Of a DNA stretch of 32,695 nucleotides, positions 12,420-24,557 are shown in pieces. The translations under genes were made by a program, and so were the position numbers. The notes below the pieces were generated by a model. That model saw nothing but the letters and a program-made list of their open reading frames with translations, had not been told where the DNA came from and searched no databases. Each line of letters opens with the position of its first letter. Position 1 is the first letter of the stretch. Origin of the DNA: Nitrospirae bacterium RBG_13_39_12. Lineage in GTDB: Bacteria; Nitrospirota; Thermodesulfovibrionia; Thermodesulfovibrionales; SM23-35. The stretch lies in NCBI GenBank assembly GCA_001805125.1, contig MHEF01000103.1:7156-39850 (forward strand), given 5' to 3'.

Positions 12420-13184
12420 ATGATTTCAAATAAAAAACTTATCGTTATAATGCCTGCCTATAATGCTGAGAAGACACTTCGTCAGACCTACGACGAATTA
12501 CCCCATGAATATATAGACGACATTATACTTGTTGATGATGCCTCAATCGACCGTACCACAAATATAGCCCAAAAATTAGGCATTAAGACAATAATCCATG
12601 ACAAAAATTTGGGATACGGAGCAAATCAAAAAACCTGTTACCGTGAAGCCCTGAGACACTGTGCAGATATTGTTGTTATGCTCCATCCTGACTATCAGTA
12701 CTCTCCGCGTCTTTTAACCGCCATGGCTTCCATGATTGTATCCAGCCATTATGATATTGTATTGGGCTCAAGGATACTTGGAGGCGATGCTCTCAAGGGC
12801 GGGATGCCCATATACAAATACATTGCAAACAGATTGCTAACGTTCATTGAAAATCTGGCACTCGGCATAAAAGTTTCTGAATACCATACGGGTTACCGTG
12901 CTTTCAAGCGTGAAGTTCTGGAAACATTACCTCTTGAAGAAAATTCTGATGATTTTATATTTGACAACGAGATTCTTGCACAGGCAGTCTATTTCGGATT
13001 CAAGATAGGTGAAATAAGCTGTCCAACCAGATATTTCAAAGACGCTTCTTCAATAAATTTTGCAAGGAGTATAAAATACGGTCTGGGCGTTATTTCAACC
13101 ACAATACGTTTTATACTGAACAAGTTCCGCTTAATAAACTCGCCTATATTCAATAAAGAGGGGCGTAAAATAACTCAAAAATAA
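12420..13184 (+). CDS. Glycosyltransferase family 2 (polyprenyl-phosphate-sugar synthase-like)
   Basis: [20 protein letters not shown]...[12 protein letters not shown]...[16 protein letters not shown]...[10 protein letters not shown], the GT2 motifs. Confidence 0.9.
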
Positions 13185-13220: not shown

Positions 13221-13655
13221 TTAGAACACTCTCATTATATTATTGCAGTTGATGTCCATGCTTTCACCGGATACACGTGTACCTGTTCTACCTGTAGCTG
13301 TTGCAGTAAAGCACGAGGCAGTACCAGTTGTAGTAATGGAATAATCGTAAGCCAATGAGTCCCCTGGTCTGAACCCTCTGAGAAAAAAATCTCCTGATGC
13401 ATTTGATTGTATTTGGGCAACGCCATTCCTGGTAGCATCTGCACATGCAGCAGGCGAGCCTGTCATATAATAACATCCATGTTCTGCAAAATATTGTTCC
13501 TCTAATAGCCTTAAATTTTGAAGATTTGATTGTGCCTCCGCCCTTGTAGCATTCCTTTGCTGGCCAATATATGCAGGAACCGCTATAACAGCCAAGATGC
13601 CGATTATTCCTATAACGACTAAAAGTTCAATTAGAGTAATCCCTTTTTTATTCAT
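13221..13655 (-). CDS. Type IV pilin (PilA/PilE-like)
   Basis: MNKKGITLIELLVVIGIIGILAVIAVPAYIGQQRNATRAEAQSNL, class III signal peptide with Glu5; AAGGAGG upstream. Confidence 0.92.
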   Translation of the reverse strand: MNKKGITLIELLVVIGIIGILAVIAVPAYIGQQRNATRAEAQSNLQNLRLLEEQYFAEHGCYYMTGSPAACADATRNGVAQIQSNASGDFFLRGFRPGDSLAYDYSITTTGTASCFTATATGRTGTRVSGESMDINCNNIMRVF

Positions 13656-13863: not shown

Positions 13864-14865
13864 TCATGCTAAGGTATGTTTTATAGGAAAGCAGTTTTGA
13901 AATCCCGGGCCATACCTTTTAAAAAAATCCCTGTACCAATTGATCGTTCTTGAAAGCCCTTCATCGAGACTGATCTTTGAAGACCATCCAAGAAGCTTTT
14001 TCACCTTTTCATTGCTACAGAAAAAATGTTTGGTCTCACCAGGTCTTTTTGGTAAAGCGCCAACAAGTAAGCGTATAGGATCTCCCATTATATGCACAAT
14101 CTTTTCTGCTACCGCTTTTACACTGTATTCGATACCATTGCCAATATTAATAACTTCTCCAATCGCATTGCGAGAAATAGCAGCAAGGGTATATGCATTA
14201 ACCGTATCATCTATGTAGTTGAATTCCCTTGTTTGGTCTCCTTCTGTCATCGGGAAGTCTTTTCCCTCAAGACAGTGTTGAATAAGGGAAGGTATAAACA
14301 TATGAGTATCCTGACCGGGTCCATATACCAGAAATGGGCGGAGTGTTATTATTGGCAAGCCAATACTTTTTTGAAGCATCTGACAAAAATAGGTTGTTGC
14401 AACCTTACTTGCCGAATATGGAGAAACAGGTATTTCTCTTTGATTCTCATTAAATGGAACTAATCCATTACCGTATTCCTCTGAACTCCCTGTATTAATA
14501 AAACACTCCAAGTCTATCTTTTCTTCAATAACCCCACGTAAAATATTTAGTGTTCCTTTAATATTTATATCAATCATGGGCTCAATCAATTCCGGTATCC
14601 TATTTACATTAATTAGCGCGGCAAGGTGGAAAATTATTTGAGGTCTTGAATGTCTTATGCAAGAACATAACGATTGGTAATCCTTTAGATCCCCATACCA
14701 TAAAGTCAGTTCGTTGATAATATCTTGGATTCTGAATTGATTAGTATCTTTCTTAAGGAATACATGAACTTGTGCTCCTTCTCCAAGAAGTTTCCGGGTA
14801 AGATGAGAACCAATAAACCCATTAGCGCCGGTTACCAAGATCACTTTACCTTTCAAGGATTTCAT
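13864..14865 (-). CDS. NAD-dependent epimerase/dehydratase (extended SDR; nucleotide-sugar enzyme)
   Basis: VILVTGANGFIGSHLTRKLL Rossmann motif, YSASK active site, RPFLVYGPGQ. Internal ATG (MKSLKGK) preferred over 14877. Confidence 0.9.
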   Translation of the reverse strand: MKSLKGKVILVTGANGFIGSHLTRKLLGEGAQVHVFLKKDTNQFRIQDIINELTLWYGDLKDYQSLCSCIRHSRPQIIFHLAALINVNRIPELIEPMIDINIKGTLNILRGVIEEKIDLECFINTGSSEEYGNGLVPFNENQREIPVSPYSASKVATTYFCQMLQKSIGLPIITLRPFLVYGPGQDTHMFIPSLIQHCLEGKDFPMTEGDQTREFNYIDDTVNAYTLAAISRNAIGEVINIGNGIEYSVKAVAEKIVHIMGDPIRLLVGALPKRPGETKHFFCSNEKVKKLLGWSSKISLDEGLSRTINWYRDFFKRYGPGFQNCFPIKHTLA

Positions 14866-15662
14866 TTCTCGTTCCATATCTTCCAGGGGACATTCCCTCT
14901 TTCCCAGTATTCATTAAGCAGGTTCATGTCACGAAGCGTATCCATGCACTGCCAGAACCCGGTGTGCTTACAGACCATGAGTTCTCCATCTTTTGCCAGC
15001 TTTTCTAATGGCTCTCTCTCCAATATGCATTGGTCATCTTCTGATAGGTAACTGAACACCCCTTTATTGAATACGAAAAATCCACCATTAATCATGCTAC
15101 TTCCTGCTTGTGGTTTCTCACCAAACTCAATAACTCGGTCACCCTCGGTAATCAACTCGCCAAATCTTGATGGTGGTCTCACACCAGTAACTGTAGCCAA
15201 TTTCCCATGGGACAAATGGAAATCCATAAGTCCTTTGATATCAATATTAGCAACACCGTCTCCGTATGTAAGAAGAAATCTGTCATTATCTATATATTTT
15301 TCGACCTTTTTTATCCTTGCCCCTGTCATTGCCTTGAGCCCTGTATCTGCCAAGGTAACTTCCCAGTTATCCTCGCTATGTAAATTATGGATATGAATGT
15401 TTTCATGCTTACCTAGATTGATCGTAAAATCACTGTTTCTGGCTCTATAATTTAGAAAATATTCTTTAATTATTTCACCTTTATATCCGAGACAGATAAT
15501 AAAACGTTTATATCCATAAAAAGAGTATATCTTCATAATATGCCATAAGATAGGTCTAGTCCCTATTGGTACCATTGGCTTTGGGATAAACTCAGTTTGT
15601 TCCCTAAGCCTTGTCCCAAAACCACCTGCTAAAATGACAACGGGAATGTTTTTTGTTTTCAT
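14862..15662 (-). CDS. rfbF: Glucose-1-phosphate cytidylyltransferase-like nucleotidyltransferase
   Basis: VVILAGGFGTRLREQTEFIPKPMVPIGTRPILWHIMKIYSFYGYKRFIICLGYKG, RfbF signature; ATG at 15662 preferred. Confidence 0.9.
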   Translation of the reverse strand: MKTKNIPVVILAGGFGTRLREQTEFIPKPMVPIGTRPILWHIMKIYSFYGYKRFIICLGYKGEIIKEYFLNYRARNSDFTINLGKHENIHIHNLHSEDNWEVTLADTGLKAMTGARIKKVEKYIDNDRFLLTYGDGVANIDIKGLMDFHLSHGKLATVTGVRPPSRFGELITEGDRVIEFGEKPQAGSSMINGGFFVFNKGVFSYLSEDDQCILEREPLEKLAKDGELMVCKHTGFWQCMDTLRDMNLLNEYWERGNVPWKIWNEK

Positions 15663-15779
15663 AGCTATATTTTTATGTTGAATTTCTTTATACAAAATAT
15701 TTACGGAAATATTTCTATAAAATATCAGGCACTGTTAGTCCAGAAAATAATGCGTTTATTACATTTAATAGGTCGTTCA

Positions 15780-16319
15780 TTAGTCTGCATATAAGTCCTT
15801 GGAGTAAATGGCCTGTCCACTCGAATCCTGTGCAAAGAGTCTAATAAAACCACCACCTGCAGCATTGCTGCAGGTTATTTTTCCAGGAACTGGGGCACCA
15901 AATTGCCACAAGTAACCAGGAGTGGTTCCCCAGGGAGACATCTCTCTCTGAGCAGTCTGTTTTGTATTTACATATTGACTGCACAATCCATTATTCAAAA
16001 ATAAAAGTTGACCGAGTGCTGAATTATTCATATCGAAATCCGACTGAATTACTCCATCCCCATCAGTATCAACTTCATAAAGCTGTCCTTGAACTCCAGT
16101 GCCATCAGCACGCCCTTTTAAAGCTGAGTGGAGCCACGCCTGTAATTCTGACTCTGAGGCAGAAGCAGCCCTTAATACCGCCCCTTTCCTTGCCCTGTTT
16201 TGTATACCTAAAAAACCGGGGATCGCTATTGCAGCCAGGATAGTAATAATTGCAATAACAACAAGCAGTTCAATCAAAGCAAAACCCTTACCTCGCTGGC
16301 GATTCATTAGCCTCGACAT
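15780..16319 (-). CDS. Type IV pilin-like protein, paralog of 23061-23612
   Basis: KGFALIELLVVIAIITILAAIAIPGFLGIQNRARKGAVLRAAS; SD gaggaggaaaag. C-terminal half shares ALKGRA.GTG.QGQLYEVDT.GDGVIQS..DMNNS.LG with the other pilin. Confidence 0.9.
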   Translation of the reverse strand: MSRLMNRQRGKGFALIELLVVIAIITILAAIAIPGFLGIQNRARKGAVLRAASASESELQAWLHSALKGRADGTGVQGQLYEVDTDGDGVIQSDFDMNNSALGQLLFLNNGLCSQYVNTKQTAQREMSPWGTTPGYLWQFGAPVPGKITCSNAAGGGFIRLFAQDSSGQAIYSKDLYAD

Positions 16320-16444: not shown

Positions 16445-17422
16445 TCAATTCTCTGGTAAACCGGTATCTTTTCTCTCATGGTTAAATTCTTCTCTAATGA
16501 CAAACAAAGGCCTATGTTTTATCTCTACATAAAGTCGACCTATATATTCGCCTATTAACCCTATAAAGAAGAGTTGCAAACCGCCAAGAGCCAGAATAGG
16601 GAGCAATGTAGAAGCCCAACCCGGTATGAATTTATCAGTAAAGATTTTAATATATAAAACCCATAACGCTCCTGAAAGAGACAACATGGATATAAATATA
16701 CCAATAATAGAGGTTAATCTTAAAGGGAAATAAGTGAATGAAACAATCCCGTCAATGCTTAGAGAAAATAAAGAGCTAATATTAAATTTTGATTGTCCAG
16801 CCTTTCTGTTTTCACGTTTATAAAACACGGTAGCATATCGGGACTCAAGTTGTAAAACCATAGCCCGAATAAGACGGTTCCTCTCAGGAAGAGCGTTAAA
16901 CTCTCGTAATAATTGTTTTGACATAAGCCTAAAGTCTCCGTGATTGAATACGATATTAACACCCATCAATTTCATCAGTCTATAATAATTCTCAGAAAAG
17001 AATCTTTTTATGAATGAATCTGAAGATCGGTCCTCACGAACACCTAGAACCAGATCATATCCCTGTTCAAACCAAGTTATCATTTCTTCAATCTTCTCCG
17101 GTGGATCCTGAAGATCTGCATCTATGGTTACAACTGCATCCCCTTTAGAATGAAATAAACCCGCAGAAATTGATCCCTGGAAACCAAAATTACGTCTCAA
17201 AGAAATTATTCTAGTATATGGGTCATAAACAAAGATGTTCCTTAAGACCTGTAAAGTATTATCTGTTGATCCATTATCTATATATATCAGTTCATAATTT
17301 GAAATCTTTCTGGAGGAAAGTAAATTTTTAAGTACATTAGTTATTCTATCGTGAGTTGCTCTTAAAACCTCTTCCTCGTTGTGGCATGGAATAACTATAG
17401 ATAATAAGTCAATCTTTCTCAT
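16445..17422 (-). CDS. GT2 glycosyltransferase with C-terminal TM segments (undecaprenyl-phosphate sugar transferase, GtrB/ArnC-like)
   Basis: LSIVIPCHNEEEVL...IDADLQDPPEKIEEMI...NFGFQGSISAGL and two C-terminal TM helices ending GEYIGRLYVEIKHRP. Confidence 0.92.
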   Translation of the reverse strand: MRKIDLLSIVIPCHNEEEVLRATHDRITNVLKNLLSSRKISNYELIYIDNGSTDNTLQVLRNIFVYDPYTRIISLRRNFGFQGSISAGLFHSKGDAVVTIDADLQDPPEKIEEMITWFEQGYDLVLGVREDRSSDSFIKRFFSENYYRLMKLMGVNIVFNHGDFRLMSKQLLREFNALPERNRLIRAMVLQLESRYATVFYKRENRKAGQSKFNISSLFSLSIDGIVSFTYFPLRLTSIIGIFISMLSLSGALWVLYIKIFTDKFIPGWASTLLPILALGGLQLFFIGLIGEYIGRLYVEIKHRPLFVIREEFNHERKDTGLPEN

Positions 17423-18155
17423 ATTTTTTCGCTATAGCAAAAACACTAATTCCTACTGCTAGATTTATACCTATTGATAGAATCATATTTTCGAATTTAA
17501 GTAAATATTCTAAAGCCTTGTTTAAAAATAAACCTACTTCGCGTAACTGATCCCCTGATTTCCTGCTTCCTTGCAAAAAAAACTTCTGAAAGAGTCTGAC
17601 CAAGCTTAGTGGAAAGAATAAACTGAAATTCCAGTACGAACTTCTCTCTATTATAAAACCACTTTCCGTTAAAACTCTGCACAGACCTGATTTGGAATAT
17701 CTCCTGTAGTGATGATTGATTTCATCATGCTCACTCCATAAAAATTTAAACGCAGGTACAAATATAAATAATTTACCGTTCGGCTTTAATATTCTGTACC
17801 ATTCGGAAAGAGCTTTGTATTCATCTTTAATATGCTCCAAAATATCAGAAGCAATAATAACATCAATTTTTTGATCTTTGAACCCTGTTTTTTCTGCATC
17901 AGCAACACGGACATTGTTGATTCCTTTTTGCCTGCAAATTTCAACTGCATTTTTATCAATTTCAACACCCTCAAGGTTTTTAAAACCTCTAGCCATTAAG
18001 AATCCTATCAATGCACCACCGGAACACCCAGCATCCAAAATATCAACATTTCTGTCATAATCTTTTATCAACCTAAATATCATATCCCTTCGCCCCTTAA
18101 ACAGCCAATAGTTTCCCTCTAATTCGTGATACTTCGAGGCATAAAAATGTTCCAT
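17409..18155 (-). CDS. Class I SAM-dependent methyltransferase
   Basis: ILDAGCSGGALIGFLMARGF (motif I), VIIASDILEHIKDEYKAL, LKPNGKLFIFVPAF. Confidence 0.88.
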   Translation of the reverse strand: MEHFYASKYHELEGNYWLFKGRRDMIFRLIKDYDRNVDILDAGCSGGALIGFLMARGFKNLEGVEIDKNAVEICRQKGINNVRVADAEKTGFKDQKIDVIIASDILEHIKDEYKALSEWYRILKPNGKLFIFVPAFKFLWSEHDEINHHYRRYSKSGLCRVLTESGFIIERSSYWNFSLFFPLSLVRLFQKFFLQGSRKSGDQLREVGLFLNKALEYLLKFENMILSIGINLAVGISVFAIAKKYEKD

Positions 18156-19168
18156 TATGTTTTTTTACCAAGATTCTCAAAGTGTTTATTGTACCACTCA
18201 ATTGTTTCTTTAAGTCCCTCACTTACAGAATAGAGCGGTTTCCACTTAAGAGTTCCCCTTGCCTTTTCAGAGGAAAGGTACTGTTTACGTATTTCTCCTT
18301 TAGCCTGATTTAATATGATTGGGTTTAAATCCAGGCGGTTCATCAATAAAAGTATTTCCTTCGTTATTTCTAAAACGGTCATTGGTGTGTCGTTTCCAAA
18401 ATTAAAAACCCCTCCCATGATATTATCATCACTCATCTTTTCTGCAAGTAATATGTATGCCTTAGCCGCATCTTTTATATAAAAATAGTCTCTCAAATAT
18501 TTACCGTCGCTCCTAATAATCGGTCTTTCATTGTAAAACACAGAGCGGATAGTTCCAGGAACGATCCTATTAAAGTTAAGATCTCCACCCCCAAACAGAT
18601 TGCCACACCTTGTTACACATACAGGCAAACTATAAGAATAAAAATACATCTGTGCAATTAAATCAGCACAACTTTTTGACACGTCATATGGATTTCTTCC
18701 TTTTAGTGGCATATCTTCTGTGTAAGGCAGTTTTTTATGTTCACCATATGCTTTATCGCTTGATGCCACGATTATTTTTTCTATCCTTTTATTTCGTCTG
18801 CATGCCTCCATTAAAGTCCATGTTCCTTTTATGTTTGATTCAAATGTAGAGATCGGACTGTTATTCGCAATTGGCACAATAGTCTGTGCTCCGAGATGGA
18901 AAACGAATTCCACCTCATATTCATTTAATGCTCTTTCAACCACATGGTAATCCTCTAAACTCCCTGAAATGATATTTATCCTATCTATAAGACCATCTCT
19001 GTAAACTCTCGACCCAGGGACATAGTCTCTCACCAGACCTACTACGTTTGCCTTAAGGTTTATTAACTCTTCAGTAAGCCAAGAGCCCAATAGCCCTGTA
19101 CACCCAGTTACAAAGACATTTTTGTTGCGCCAGTTGCTTTGCACCTTAATTCTCCTTTTATTTAACAA
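18155..19168 (-). CDS. rfbG: Extended SDR, CDP-glucose 4,6-dehydratase-like
   Basis: [32 protein letters not shown]..., [40 protein letters not shown]; resembles RfbG. Confidence 0.8.
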
Positions 19169-19271: not shown

Positions 19272-21086
19272 TTATTCATTATTCCCTAATTCTAATGCCC
19301 TTTGATACAACAAACTGCTTTTTTCTTTATCTCCTCTCTTTTCATATGCCAATGCAAGATTATTAAATAGATAAGGTTTTTTATTTATACTTATTGCTTT
19401 TTCAAATATTTCTATTGCAGAATCAATCTGATTAATTTTTATATATTGAACACCAAGATTATTGAGCAAGACTACTGATGACGGGAATAATTTTACAGCT
19501 TCCTCGAATATTTCTATGGCTTTCTCGGTTTGCCCCATAGCACTGTATGTCCTTCCAAGTTTGTTCAGGATATCTAGATGTAATTGTGGGTTGAGCTTTC
19601 CTGTCAGGGCTTGTTTTAAATAAACAACAGCGTTTTTATAATTGCCGAGTCTATATTGAACATCTCCCAGATTAAAATAAACAGCGGTATAATTATGATT
19701 CGCCTTTAACGATTTATTAAACAGCTCAACAGCTATGTCATATTTTTTTCTCTCTTTAAAGACAACTCCAAGATTGTTATATGCCCGTGCATTATTAGGA
19801 GCCTTTGTTATTACATCCTGCCATAAAAACTGCGGATCTCGCCAAACGTTGTTTCTGCTATAAGTACTAAGCGATAGTACAGAAACCAGAACGACGACTA
19901 AACTAATCTTTATCTTTCTTGACAACAGGATTTGATCAAGTGCTGCTGCACAGGCTATAAAAAACCCTACTGATGGAAGGTATACCCTGTGTTCATTAAT
20001 AACATCGCGTATGGGGATGATGCTCGATTCAACAGAAAGAGCAAGAAAAAACCAAGCGATAGCGAAAGATATAAGTTTTGCTCTTTTATATGTCCAGATA
20101 GCAATAGCAATAAAAAAGAGTATCGTAATGAGAGATAAAAATATTTCAAGAGAAAACATGGTCTTATAAATTTTATAGTCATAGTCAAAGTTTAAATTAA
20201 CAGGAAAAAATAATAGTCTTATATATGTGATAATCACCCTGAACTGTGTTATTACATAATCCGTCCTTGATATATTAGTTGTTTCTCTTGACATATAATC
20301 AATATCGGTCAAGATATCATTTACGGATTTTTCGAGATTAACAGATCCCCCAAAAAATATTAATAATATAAGCAGAATCGGCAGGAAGAATATAGCTATC
20401 TTTAATCTTTTACGCTCTAAATTGAAAAAGTATAATTCGCACATAATGATTGCAAAAGGTAGTGTCAGTGCAATTTCTTTTGTTTTCATGGCAAGAATAG
20501 CAGTCAAAAAAGAAAGAAAATAAAATGTCAGGGTTGGAGCTGAAAAAAACTTAGTTTTATCATTTGCTCCTGTTTTCAGGCTAAGTCTTGCCTTTAGATA
20601 AAAAACTATTGATGTAAGGTAGAACATTGTAGCCATAGAGGTAAATCTCTGGACGATGTAAGTAACAGCCTGCGTCTGTATTGGATGTGAAACAAACATA
20701 AAAGAGGCTGTAAAGGCAATAAATTCCTTTGAAAGCTCGGAATCACTCATTTTTGGAGTTTTAAAAATAAGTGTTACAAAATAGTAAACCAAAAAAGCAT
20801 TAATAATATGGATAAAAACATTTAATATGTGATAACTGAAGACATTCAATCCTCCAATAGAATAATTTAAAGCAAAGCTCAATAAACCAACATATCGTCT
20901 GCTGGATATATTGGTAAATGATTCTGACAGGGTTTTTATCGTTTCATTTTCAACAATAGTACCTCTGTCATCATAAACAAAAGGGGAATAAAGAATGTTT
21001 GAATAAATAATTGCGCCAAGTAAAGAAATCCCTAAAACCCCTAATATGACAATCTTTCTTTTGTTTGATGCAGGAATCAGGATCAT
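19272..21086 (-). CDS. Polytopic GT-C-like membrane protein with C-terminal TPRs (TMTC-like)
   Basis: SPFVYDDRGTIVENETIK...SFALNYSIGGLNVFSYHILNVFIHIINAFLVYYF...FVSHPIQTQAVTYIVQR..., multiple TM segments, then several TPR units (ARAYNNLGVVFKERKKYDIAVELFNKSLKAN...). Confidence 0.85.
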   Translation of the reverse strand: MILIPASNKRKIVILGVLGISLLGAIIYSNILYSPFVYDDRGTIVENETIKTLSESFTNISSRRYVGLLSFALNYSIGGLNVFSYHILNVFIHIINAFLVYYFVTLIFKTPKMSDSELSKEFIAFTASFMFVSHPIQTQAVTYIVQRFTSMATMFYLTSIVFYLKARLSLKTGANDKTKFFSAPTLTFYFLSFLTAILAMKTKEIALTLPFAIIMCELYFFNLERKRLKIAIFFLPILLILLIFFGGSVNLEKSVNDILTDIDYMSRETTNISRTDYVITQFRVIITYIRLLFFPVNLNFDYDYKIYKTMFSLEIFLSLITILFFIAIAIWTYKRAKLISFAIAWFFLALSVESSIIPIRDVINEHRVYLPSVGFFIACAAALDQILLSRKIKISLVVVLVSVLSLSTYSRNNVWRDPQFLWQDVITKAPNNARAYNNLGVVFKERKKYDIAVELFNKSLKANHNYTAVYFNLGDVQYRLGNYKNAVVYLKQALTGKLNPQLHLDILNKLGRTYSAMGQTEKAIEIFEEAVKLFPSSVVLLNNLGVQYIKINQIDSAIEIFEKAISINKKPYLFNNLALAYEKRGDKEKSSLLYQRALELGNNE

Positions 21087-21158: not shown

Positions 21159-23009
21159 TTAGCGGGGTATTCCTTTATTTTTTAATGCCTTATCAGACGA
21201 TTTTTTCTGCTTGGCAAACTCTTCGTCTATCTCTTTAATCTTCTGCATAAGGTCTGGGTCTTTCCATGTTTCGGCAGCATACTTATAAGCCTTCAGTGCA
21301 TCTTCGGTTCTTCCTATTTTTGAGAAAATATACCCGAGAGAAATAAGGTGTCTGGGATTAACCCCGTCATACAATGCTGAAGAGGCAGTCTTAGCAATAA
21401 GCAAATCATACACATCATTTTTAGGCATTTTAAATTTAGATATTACTTCTTTATTACAATTTGTATCCTTAACAAATATGATACTCATATGATCATAATA
21501 TACCGGTACCCATTTATTGCTCTCGGCAAGTTCAAGGATTAAAGGAGTTACATTGCCGTAAACATCTGTAATAGACAAGAAAATAAAATTTATTTTATAG
21601 TGCTTTAAGATTACCGCCCATAAAGGTAACTTCTCATTCTTTGTTTTGATACCTTTAACTTTTTTCTTAGCTTCTCCTATCATTCCGTATTCATCCATTA
21701 CAGCCCTATTCAATGCCCGTGTATCAATAAAATTTTTTATGGGATAAAGTCTCCAGGTAATATATCCCCCATATCCGTAGTCATTAAACATATTCCCCTG
21801 TATTTTGTTCTTTTCAATGAAATCTACTGCTACCACCGGAACACTAAGCTCTTTCGCTATTTCTAATTTGATATTATATTTTAAGCTACCGAACAGAAAA
21901 AACAGTGAAGAAAAGAGTGTAAAAAAAGCCAATGTGTACCTGATATTTTTATGAAAATCCTCTGAAAACCTTCTATCAATTAAATTTTTTATAAAAATAT
22001 CAAACTCTTTTCCAATAATCATAGAGGCTACTACTGCATAAAAAATTCCATACCGAGAAGCTTTAATGCTCATAATAAAAAACCCAGTTAGAAGTATTAC
22101 ATGAATTAATTCAAGTTTCCTGTTCCTTAAAATTAATATCAGAGGAAACATCGCAGCAATACTGAAGTATGCATAACTAAAAGGGCGAAACTTGTAAATA
22201 AAAACATGCAATGGTGAAATATATTCCTGTATCCCCTCCTGAAATATATTATATTTGGATGAAAATGCCATAAAAAAAGAATCCCACCCCGAGGGGTTCA
22301 TAAATGAGGCAATAATTGCTAAACCGGTTGCACTATAAAAAATTTTCATTTCACGTTTTGTAAAATTACTTTTCCTTAAAAATACTTTAATCACTTCTCC
22401 CAATATAAACACCGAAATAATGATCACACCGAGGATAAATCCTCCGTGCATATTTGACCATAGAAGCATTACAGGCACAATAAAAAATAGTGTTTTGTTT
22501 TTTCTATCCCTAAAATCCTCGAGAAGAAAAAGTATAACTGAAGTGAAAAGTATCGAAAAAAGAACAGGTCTTTCGCCAAGAGACTTCATTGTCATCATGA
22601 ATAAAGCAAAAACAAAAATAAAGGATATATAGAATTTGACTCCAGACCTTTTCAGTTGCCAGAAAACAATCAATACAGTCATAAAAAGGATTGCAGCTCT
22701 CATAAAAATTATGCCTGTTGGCCCTGTATAATTAAAGATAAGGTAAAATAGGACCTGAGCAAGCCAGTATTGTTTTAAGAAGAAGTGTTCTCTTTCAGGA
22801 AAAATATTCTTGTTTTCTTCCATTGTTGAGGTAAAAGAAAAAGGATCCTCCTCCGGGAGATGCCCTTCGGTTAGAATGTATCTTCCTGTTGAAATATGCC
22901 ACCAGAAGTCATAATCCCAGAGTTTTATTGTAAGATAGTTATACAGGAAAGCAGAAAATAATATAAGAAAAATAAGCAGAACTATAATTTTAATAGATTT
23001 GTTTTTCAT
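21159..23009 (-). CDS. Polytopic membrane protein, GT-C-like, with short C-terminal TPR-like tail
   Basis: Multiple TM helices; N-terminal loop LWDYDFWWHISTGRYILTEGHLPEEDPFSFTS resembles first-loop acidic motifs of GT-C families; C-terminal GYIFSKIGRTEDALKAYKYAAETW. Confidence 0.7.
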   Translation of the reverse strand: MKNKSIKIIVLLIFLILFSAFLYNYLTIKLWDYDFWWHISTGRYILTEGHLPEEDPFSFTSTMEENKNIFPEREHFFLKQYWLAQVLFYLIFNYTGPTGIIFMRAAILFMTVLIVFWQLKRSGVKFYISFIFVFALFMMTMKSLGERPVLFSILFTSVILFLLEDFRDRKNKTLFFIVPVMLLWSNMHGGFILGVIIISVFILGEVIKVFLRKSNFTKREMKIFYSATGLAIIASFMNPSGWDSFFMAFSSKYNIFQEGIQEYISPLHVFIYKFRPFSYAYFSIAAMFPLILILRNRKLELIHVILLTGFFIMSIKASRYGIFYAVVASMIIGKEFDIFIKNLIDRRFSEDFHKNIRYTLAFFTLFSSLFFLFGSLKYNIKLEIAKELSVPVVAVDFIEKNKIQGNMFNDYGYGGYITWRLYPIKNFIDTRALNRAVMDEYGMIGEAKKKVKGIKTKNEKLPLWAVILKHYKINFIFLSITDVYGNVTPLILELAESNKWVPVYYDHMSIIFVKDTNCNKEVISKFKMPKNDVYDLLIAKTASSALYDGVNPRHLISLGYIFSKIGRTEDALKAYKYAAETWKDPDLMQKIKEIDEEFAKQKKSSDKALKNKGIPR

Positions 23010-23060: not shown

Positions 23061-23612
23061 TTAGTCTGAATACAAAGTCTTTTGATGAAGGGTTTGTGCA
23101 CTTGAATCTTGTGCTGTTATAGTTATATTTGCCGCATTAGCAGTGTGCGAACAAACTATCGCTCCTGCTGATGTAGCAGTTTGAGATAGCCATAATGAAC
23201 CAGAAGTATTAGCCCATGGGGACATTTCATCCTGTAAAGTCTGTTTTGCAAGTACATACTGGTCACATAATCCATTAGCAGTAGTTAAAAGCGTTCCGAG
23301 CTCAGAGTTGTTCATGTCAACGCCTGACTGAATTACGCCATCTCCGGTAGTGTCAACCTCATAAAGTTGTCCCTGAATACCTGTTCCAGCAGCACGTCCT
23401 TTTAGTGCAGAATTAAGCCAGCCCTGGATATCCGGCTCTGCCGATGAAGCTGCTCTGATAACCGCTCCCTTCCTAGACCTCTCCTGCATACCAAGATAAC
23501 CGGGGATTGCAATTGCGGCAAGTATTCCTATGATTGCAACAACTATGAGCAATTCAATGAGGGTAAAGCCTCTTTCTTCTCTCACCTTCATCTTGTGAAT
23601 AGTCCTGAACAT
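23061..23612 (-). CDS. Type IV pilin-like protein
   Basis: ERGFTLIELLIVVAIIGILAAIAIPGYLGMQERSRKGAVIRAASSAEPDIQGWLNSALKGRA; strong SD AAGGAGGT. Confidence 0.93.
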   Translation of the reverse strand: MFRTIHKMKVREERGFTLIELLIVVAIIGILAAIAIPGYLGMQERSRKGAVIRAASSAEPDIQGWLNSALKGRAAGTGIQGQLYEVDTTGDGVIQSGVDMNNSELGTLLTTANGLCDQYVLAKQTLQDEMSPWANTSGSLWLSQTATSAGAIVCSHTANAANITITAQDSSAQTLHQKTLYSD

Positions 23613-23946: not shown

Positions 23947-24384
23947 TCACTCCCAACTGTTAATGTCTTCACTTTCTCCATCTCCACCGGAAGAACCATC
24001 TGCTCCATAGGAAAAAAGGTCATAATCTCCGTGACTTCCCGGCGATTGATAATTATAAGGTCTTTTCCATGGATCATTTGGAACAGCCTTCTTTAAATAC
24101 GGGCCGCTCCAACCCTCTATCCCGGGATCAACCACTAGTGCATTTAAACCTTCTGATGTTGTGGGATATTTGCCTATATCAAGTCTGTACAGTTCAAGGG
24201 CCTGATCGAAGATTTCTATCTGCGCCTTTGCAGCATTGTGTTTGCTCGTTCCGATTTTCCCGGTAAATTTCACATAGACAATTGAAGCTAATATACCTAT
24301 GATAACCATAACGACAATAAGTTCAATAAGGGTGAATCCGTTTTGGTTGCTTGATTTTTTTACTTCTTCATTTTCAATTTTCAT
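23947..24384 (-). CDS. gspG: GspG-like type II secretion major pseudopilin
   Basis: NGFTLIELIVVMVIIGILASIVYVKFTGKIG...IEIFDQALELYRLDIGKYPTTSEGLNALV...GWSGPYLKKAVPNDPWKRPYNYQSPGSHGDYDLFSYGADGSSGGDGE; GGAGG before ATG 24384. Confidence 0.93.
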   Translation of the reverse strand: MKIENEEVKKSSNQNGFTLIELIVVMVIIGILASIVYVKFTGKIGTSKHNAAKAQIEIFDQALELYRLDIGKYPTTSEGLNALVVDPGIEGWSGPYLKKAVPNDPWKRPYNYQSPGSHGDYDLFSYGADGSSGGDGESEDINSWE

Positions 24385-24557
24385 TTTTCCTCCACTTATA
24401 TTTGACAACTGTTATATATTTCAATTGATTCTATTCTTATCCGAGAAATACATATCTTAACCTTATGTATAATACATAATATGCTACCACAGGGTTAAAA
24501 GAGCGTCAAATTACCTCTTTATTAATTCTATTTTAGATGTTAAAATCTCTTCATTTT

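Follow-up and report, generated by a model that had tools for sequence, protein, structure and literature searches.

The window, a stretch of 32,695 nucleotides from the Nitrospirae bacterium RBG_13_39_12, encodes a membrane protein that probably transfers sugar to pilins, because it is built like the TMTC proteins, lies in a variable pilin island and carries a TPR tail whose conservation is unusually high only in relatives encoded beside pilins. On balance, we favor an inner-membrane TMTC-type GT-C glycosyltransferase acting on an island pilin, and a pilin is, with moderate confidence, our best single guess for the acceptor. Fold, membrane topology, active-site conservation, the pilin-island clade and the clade-specific conservation of the TPRs were obtained computationally; catalysis, a polyprenyl-phosphate donor, a pilin acceptor and an O-linkage are what we infer. 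On the periplasmic side of the membrane, the 11-helix domain would accept a sugar carried by a polyprenyl phosphate; D39-D40, which lie in the first periplasmic loop, would form the catalytic or metal site, and K203/E204, D301 and R367 would surround the donor phosphate. The TPR solenoid in the periplasm would hold the protein acceptor, most likely an island pilin, so that the sugar could be transferred to a pilin Ser/Thr before or during pilus assembly.

The coordinates which a sequence-only reading of the window had given for the gene are exact, and its strand, absent from that reading, is minus (Table 1). The three strings quoted there (SPFVYDDRGTIVENETIK, SFALNYSIGGLNVFSYHILNVFIH and FVSHPIQTQAVTYIVQR) are all found in the protein, and the described layout of a polytopic N-terminal two-thirds followed by several TPRs is borne out as well: the polytopic part comprises residues 1 to ~410 (68%) with 11 TM helices in the AlphaFold2 model, and the TPRs are genuine, with Pfam TPR_1 (E=3.7e-33) matching five stretches across residues ~421-600 and helical hairpins running from 418 to 600 in the model. 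Searches of the N-domain against Pfam yielded no useful match to any family, and a profile of 30 homologs found no match among PDB sequences.

Table 1. Features of the TMTC-like gene and of the surrounding island, in positions of the window.
Feature	Position	Strand	Basis
TMTC-like GT-C protein with C-terminal TPR solenoid, 604 aa	19272..21086	-	ORF, Pfam, family alignment, AlphaFold2 model, Foldseek
GT-C catalytic domain (predicted), residues 1-410, 11 predicted TM helices	19857..21086	-	alignment, model, Foldseek, topology
Predicted periplasmic TPR solenoid, residues 411-604, 5-6 TPRs	19272..19856	-	Pfam, AlphaFold2 model
Acidic pair D39-D40 codons, first predicted periplasmic loop	20967..20972	-	ORF, alignment
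GspG-type pseudopilin, radC side of island	23947..24408	-	
pilA, type IV pilin-like, 183 aa, candidate acceptor	23061..23612	-	
P2, second polytopic protein, 616 aa, short C-terminal TPR; candidate membrane glycosyltransferase	21159..23009	-	
SDR1, CDP-glucose 4,6-dehydratase-like	18155..19168	-	TIGR02622 E=2.8e-59, below cut-off
Class I SAM methyltransferase	17409..18155	-	
GT2, PgfS/polyprenyl-phosphate-sugar synthase type	16445..17422	-	PgfS model E=5.6e-73, below its cut-off
Second pilA-type pilin, 179 aa, candidate acceptor	15780..16319	-	
Glucose-1-phosphate cytidylyltransferase, RfbF	14862..15695	-	TIGR02623 above its cut-off
SDR2, nucleotide-sugar epimerase/dehydratase	13864..14877	-	
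pilC, ComP-like pilin, 144 aa	13221..13655	-	ComP_DUS E=2.9e-8
Second GT2, nearest AglJ, PpgS, DPhHxTase (polyprenyl/dolichyl-phosphate monosaccharide synthases)	12420..13184	+	all below cut-off

The GT-C fold that had been proposed from the sequence was checked with Foldseek on predicted structures. AlphaFold2 models were computed from the window protein and six relatives (seven sequences, a shallow input); the full-length model reached a pTM of 0.69, with the TPR part mostly above 90 pLDDT. Since the PDB matches listed for this model were all TPR proteins, the N-domain was modeled alone (pTM 0.79, mean pLDDT 71, first and fourth periplasmic loops of low confidence). For this model, the top-50 PDB matches with a probability of at least 0.77 were all GT-C enzymes, headed at probability 1.00 by AglB (5gmy/7e9s), Pmt4 (9i5k, TMq 0.50) and ArnT with undecaprenyl-P (5f15, TMq 0.50); Pmt1-Pmt2 and yeast OST were also found, and non-GT-C folds, including transporters, stayed below 0.35 among the matches listed. 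The E-values (best 0.005) and TM-scores (up to 0.50) are modest, as would be expected for a shallow model, and the assignment to GT-C was made because the matches lie consistently within this class.

Our own hydropathy/positive-inside predictor did not give an agreed number of helices and was dropped in favor of the helices of the AlphaFold2 model. The 11-TM reading takes the hydrophobic segment 274-293 as a non-membrane helix, following the description of such a helix in TMTCs (PMC7801869), and predicts the N-terminus inside and the TPRs outside. Under this reading, the density of K+R across the family is 0.21 inside versus 0.09 outside, and nearly all conserved polar residues (D39/D40, R64, R147, K203/E204, D301/Y302, E365/R367/Y369) are predicted to face the periplasm. 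Helix parity, charge bias and the placement of conserved residues thus support TPRs in the predicted periplasm, in line with the lumenal TPRs of human TMTCs (PMC7801869), and not in the cytoplasm, the placement that the sequence-only reading had named as speaking against its proposal.

Across the 30 aligned homologs, D39, R147, K203, P295, Y302, R367 and Y369 do not vary, and conservation is at least 90% at each of D40, R64, E204, D301 and E365. The YDD acidic pair, whose conservation had been left to be checked, is therefore retained (D39 in 30/30, D40 in at least 90%), its loop is placed outside by parity and charge, and acidic residues in the first exoplasmic loop are a feature of GT-C enzymes. 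For a comparison with TMTC1-4, the animal O-mannosyltransferases of GT105, the seven motifs M1-M7 listed in Table 4 of PMC7801869 were placed by eye on the family alignment, without aligned TMTC sequences. M1 (DD, loop 1) is kept as D39-D40 and M4 (KE(T/Q)xxT, loop 3) as K203-E204-I-A-L-T208, with I at the T/Q position. The Asp of loop 4 and the Arg and Tyr of loop 5 recur in altered motifs, M5 (DW) being D301-Y302 and M7 (ERxxY) being E365-H-R367-x-Y369, that is EHRxY, in which the Arg is displaced by one position. Unlike in TMTC1-4, M2 (SHKSYRP) is reduced to R64, M3 (RxD) is lost in the 30-homolog alignment, where R147 is kept and the D is replaced by T/S, and M6 (PxxP) is absent at the corresponding place of the same alignment. 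The overall layout of 11 TM helices and exoplasmic C-terminal TPRs is, by prediction, that of TMTC/GT105.

PF08409 (DUF1736) does not match the window protein; it matches one of the 30 alignment members weakly and none of 150 relatives above its cut-off. Since PF08409 is without a match, the protein is not filed in GT105 and is, as judged from sequence comparison, TMTC-like and not a formal member of that family; it would work like a TMTC and is probably related to the TMTC branch. The earlier label "TMTC-like" is consequently upheld by layout and by M1 and M4, and is qualified by the loss of M3 and M6, the changes in the other motifs and the silent Pfam model. A paralog in the same genome (G000:C1), 39% identical over the N-domain, scores 21.6 bits with PF08409 against a cut-off of 27; it belongs to a second P2-like/TMTC-like pair, whose genes are divergently oriented (L111, 2691-5868), and is the only PF08409 match across the window's genome and the 150 relatives. 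Matches to the N-domain itself occur in 89/150 related genomes at E<=1e-3, often with at least ten per genome, and in 34/61 genomes of a phylum-wide sample at E<=1e-20; from these sequence searches, with many paralogs in 89 of 150 genomes, its occurrence is judged to be far beyond chance. Additional scans of viral contigs for a deeper alignment added few new sequences.

The island is located between uvrA and radC, and ten of its genes, read from 23612 to 13221, share one strand and follow the order pilin A, P2, TMTC-like gene, SDR, methyltransferase, PgfS-type GT2, second pilin, glucose-1-phosphate cytidylyltransferase, second SDR and ComP-like pilin. In relatives, the corresponding site is flanked by uvrA and, on contigs that extend far enough, by radC/GspG at its opposite end; the pilins there are the same, and the genes added to them are interchangeable. 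The island is conserved across families: the pilins form its common core, and both polytopic enzymes as well as the sugar cassette are exchanged. Among 25 islands, which were chosen for a nearby pilin or TMTC-like match so that the counts are not population frequencies, seven contain both P2 and a TMTC-like gene, ten P2 only, four a TMTC-like gene only and four neither. That some pilin islands (L120, L128, L129) lack both enzymes speaks against the favored reading. That the window protein is an enzyme of TMTC architecture devoted to glycosylating bacterial pilins, with its periplasmic TPR solenoid as acceptor selector, and one of several interchangeable membrane enzymes of the variable island, is a possibility to which we give slightly less than even weight. 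Island pilins, represented in the window at 23061-23612 and 13221-13655, have conserved C-termini: the pilA type mostly ends in K-x-[ILVM]-x-[SAT]-D (one ends ALD), and in relatives most pilC-type pilins end in NNNxNF. These ends possibly represent modification or assembly signals.

In a quick tree of 52 TMTC-like N-domains with moderate support, the clade of the window protein is pilin-adjacent (pilin within 6 kb) in 9/10 members, compared with 4/42 elsewhere in the tree (Fisher p=1.8e-6, with rows that are not independent); the tenth member neighbors uvrA and P2 where its contig ends. The pilin label changes four times on the tree versus 11.7 times in shuffles, none of 500 being as low. Being encoded with its pilin, a feature of TfpW and TfpO, is thus shared by this clade, in most relatives of which pilC directly adjoins the TMTC-like gene. 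The distant lineage L122, as well as L090 on a long branch, is found in the same island type, which suggests that pilin islands recruited TMTC-like genes repeatedly. Most TMTC-like paralogs are not beside pilins, and pilins therefore cannot be the general acceptor of the family. One pilin-linked TMTC-like gene (L086, 6958-8763, G013) is split by an in-frame TGA and is either a pseudogene or an assembly error.

Among tails of at least 120 aa, TPR identity inside the pilin clade was 47.5% versus 47.8% for the N-domain (difference -0.4), at a tail length of 175-197 aa; in other pairs, TPR identity was 10-12.5 points below that of the N-domain and tails measured 127-298 aa. In an orthology control, six of seven non-pilin clades showed a TPR deficit (-6 to -21) and one a value of +2, and all pilin subclades lay at +2 to +8 (TPR minus N-domain identity). 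Next to pilins, the solenoid thus appears to have been kept constant, which is what binding to a shared partner would lead one to expect. This clade-specific conservation lends circumstantial support to acceptor recruitment by the TPRs, with pilins as likeliest acceptors.

These observations also bear on a different role, in which the GT-C enzyme would decorate a surface polysaccharide or lipid-linked glycan in the style of Gtr, ArnT or GT136, the pilins would share the island merely as surface-structure genes cluster, and the TPRs would bind another enzyme. Such a role would fit the presence of RfbF and the SDRs, which are nucleotide-sugar genes, in this gene run, the pilin-free loci of most paralogs, ArnT among the nearest folds and the precedent of GT136, a GT-C enzyme with a C-terminal glycan-binding domain that decorates O antigen (PMC11127046). 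Nevertheless, we consider it unlikely, given that the pilins and not the exchanged sugar cassette and polytopic enzymes form the island core, that TPRs are a protein-binding fold and that it is precisely the pilin clade in which the tail shows constraint.

Co-variation of the TPR tail with the globular sequences of pilA or pilC was not seen inside the clade (8-9 taxa, low power), which speaks against a simple model in which the TPRs read the pilin. The earlier proposal that the TPRs recruit pilins is consequently backed, circumstantially, by the pilin-adjacent clade with its conserved tail and opposed by the absence of co-variation. This absence would suit an enzyme whose acceptor is some other protein of the periplasm or surface, or a TPR protein that scaffolds the pilus machinery (like PilF/PilW/Tgl), with pilins only indirectly involved, and the PilW, Tgl and MamA profiles do rank with the tail's best matches. 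These matches are, however, far below cut-off, as is usual for any TPR, and the conserved catalytic residues argue against a mere scaffold, so that we regard an explanation of this kind as improbable.

With respect to the preferred reading of a pilin glycosyltransferase, the second polytopic protein and the sugar donor have to be considered. P2 belongs to a widespread polytopic family with an invariant D32xD34...H38 after TM1, for which no informative Pfam model was matched; homology to the TMTC-like protein was rejected (hhalign probability 1%). A PgfS-like GT2 is present in 10/17 islands with P2 and in 0/8 without it (p=0.008). This gene goes with P2 and not with the TMTC-like gene; it is therefore not supported as donor synthase of the TMTC-like protein, and the island does not point to the donor of the latter. 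As a tentative and not exclusive refinement, both proteins might act jointly, one starting and the other extending a pilin glycan, with P2 using the PgfS-like/CDP-sugar cassette. Their adjacency in the window, their joint presence in seven of the 25 islands and the PgfS-like gene tracking P2 would agree with this, but each is also found apart from the other, so neither needs its partner. Judging from its enzyme class, the donor of the TMTC-like protein is likely a polyprenyl-P-monosaccharide; mannose is not indicated here. PpgS/AglJ/DPhHxTase-like genes occur near TMTC-like genes in L085, L089, L090, L091, L092, L093 and L098 as well as in the window (12420-13184). GtrA as a shared flippase was rejected, with one found in the window's genome and none in ten relatives searched; this only GtrA domain of the genome is fused to a DPMS-type GT2 (353 aa; L156, G000:C91).

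Animal TMTCs attach mannose to cell-adhesion proteins. The window protein differs from them in lacking a link to mannose and in being located in a bacterial pilin island. To our knowledge, TfpW has no TPR tail. This GT-C arabinosyltransferase for group IV pilins of P. aeruginosa is encoded with its pilin and, in contrast to the window protein, uses an arabinofuranose pathway (PMC11841053); compared by description, it is similarly a pilin accessory GT-C enzyme associated with variable pilin-linked modification genes. In Streptococcus mutans, PgfS, PgfM1, PgfE and PgfM2 together modify surface proteins (PMC5856776), a set that resembles the island in combining two polytopic proteins with a GT2 of PgfS type and a sugar epimerase, the membrane proteins being likened by description, whereas the acceptors there are Cnm and WapA and not pilins. 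The protein O-mannosyltransferase TMEM260 (GT117) is alike by its GT-C plus TPR layout only, and recruitment of acceptors by the TPRs has been proposed for the human TMTC/TMEM260 enzymes (PMC11292533).

The combination of a GT-C domain and TPRs is itself not new, because full-length prokaryotic TMTC homologs, e.g., AMJ42_05695, have been noted before (PMC7801869). An acceptor or context was not proposed there; new in comparison is a clade linked to pilins in which the TPR tail is constrained. This clade makes the idea of acceptor recruitment testable and yields a short list of candidate acceptors. If the reading with the TPR solenoid as acceptor selector is true, the window protein would be the first TMTC-like enzyme of a prokaryote to have its acceptor class assigned, and it would offer a tractable model of TPR target choice in human TMTC enzymes. 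Bacterial TMTC-like proteins are numerous and, as far as we know, the literature assigns them no role. Some are encoded in arrays where up to about nine TMTC-like genes follow one another head to tail (L159 and L160 at G162:C23:67399-85965, also L161-L168), spaced ~2 kb apart, with glycosyltransferases near and, in some arrays, with ORFs of 1595-2031 aa.
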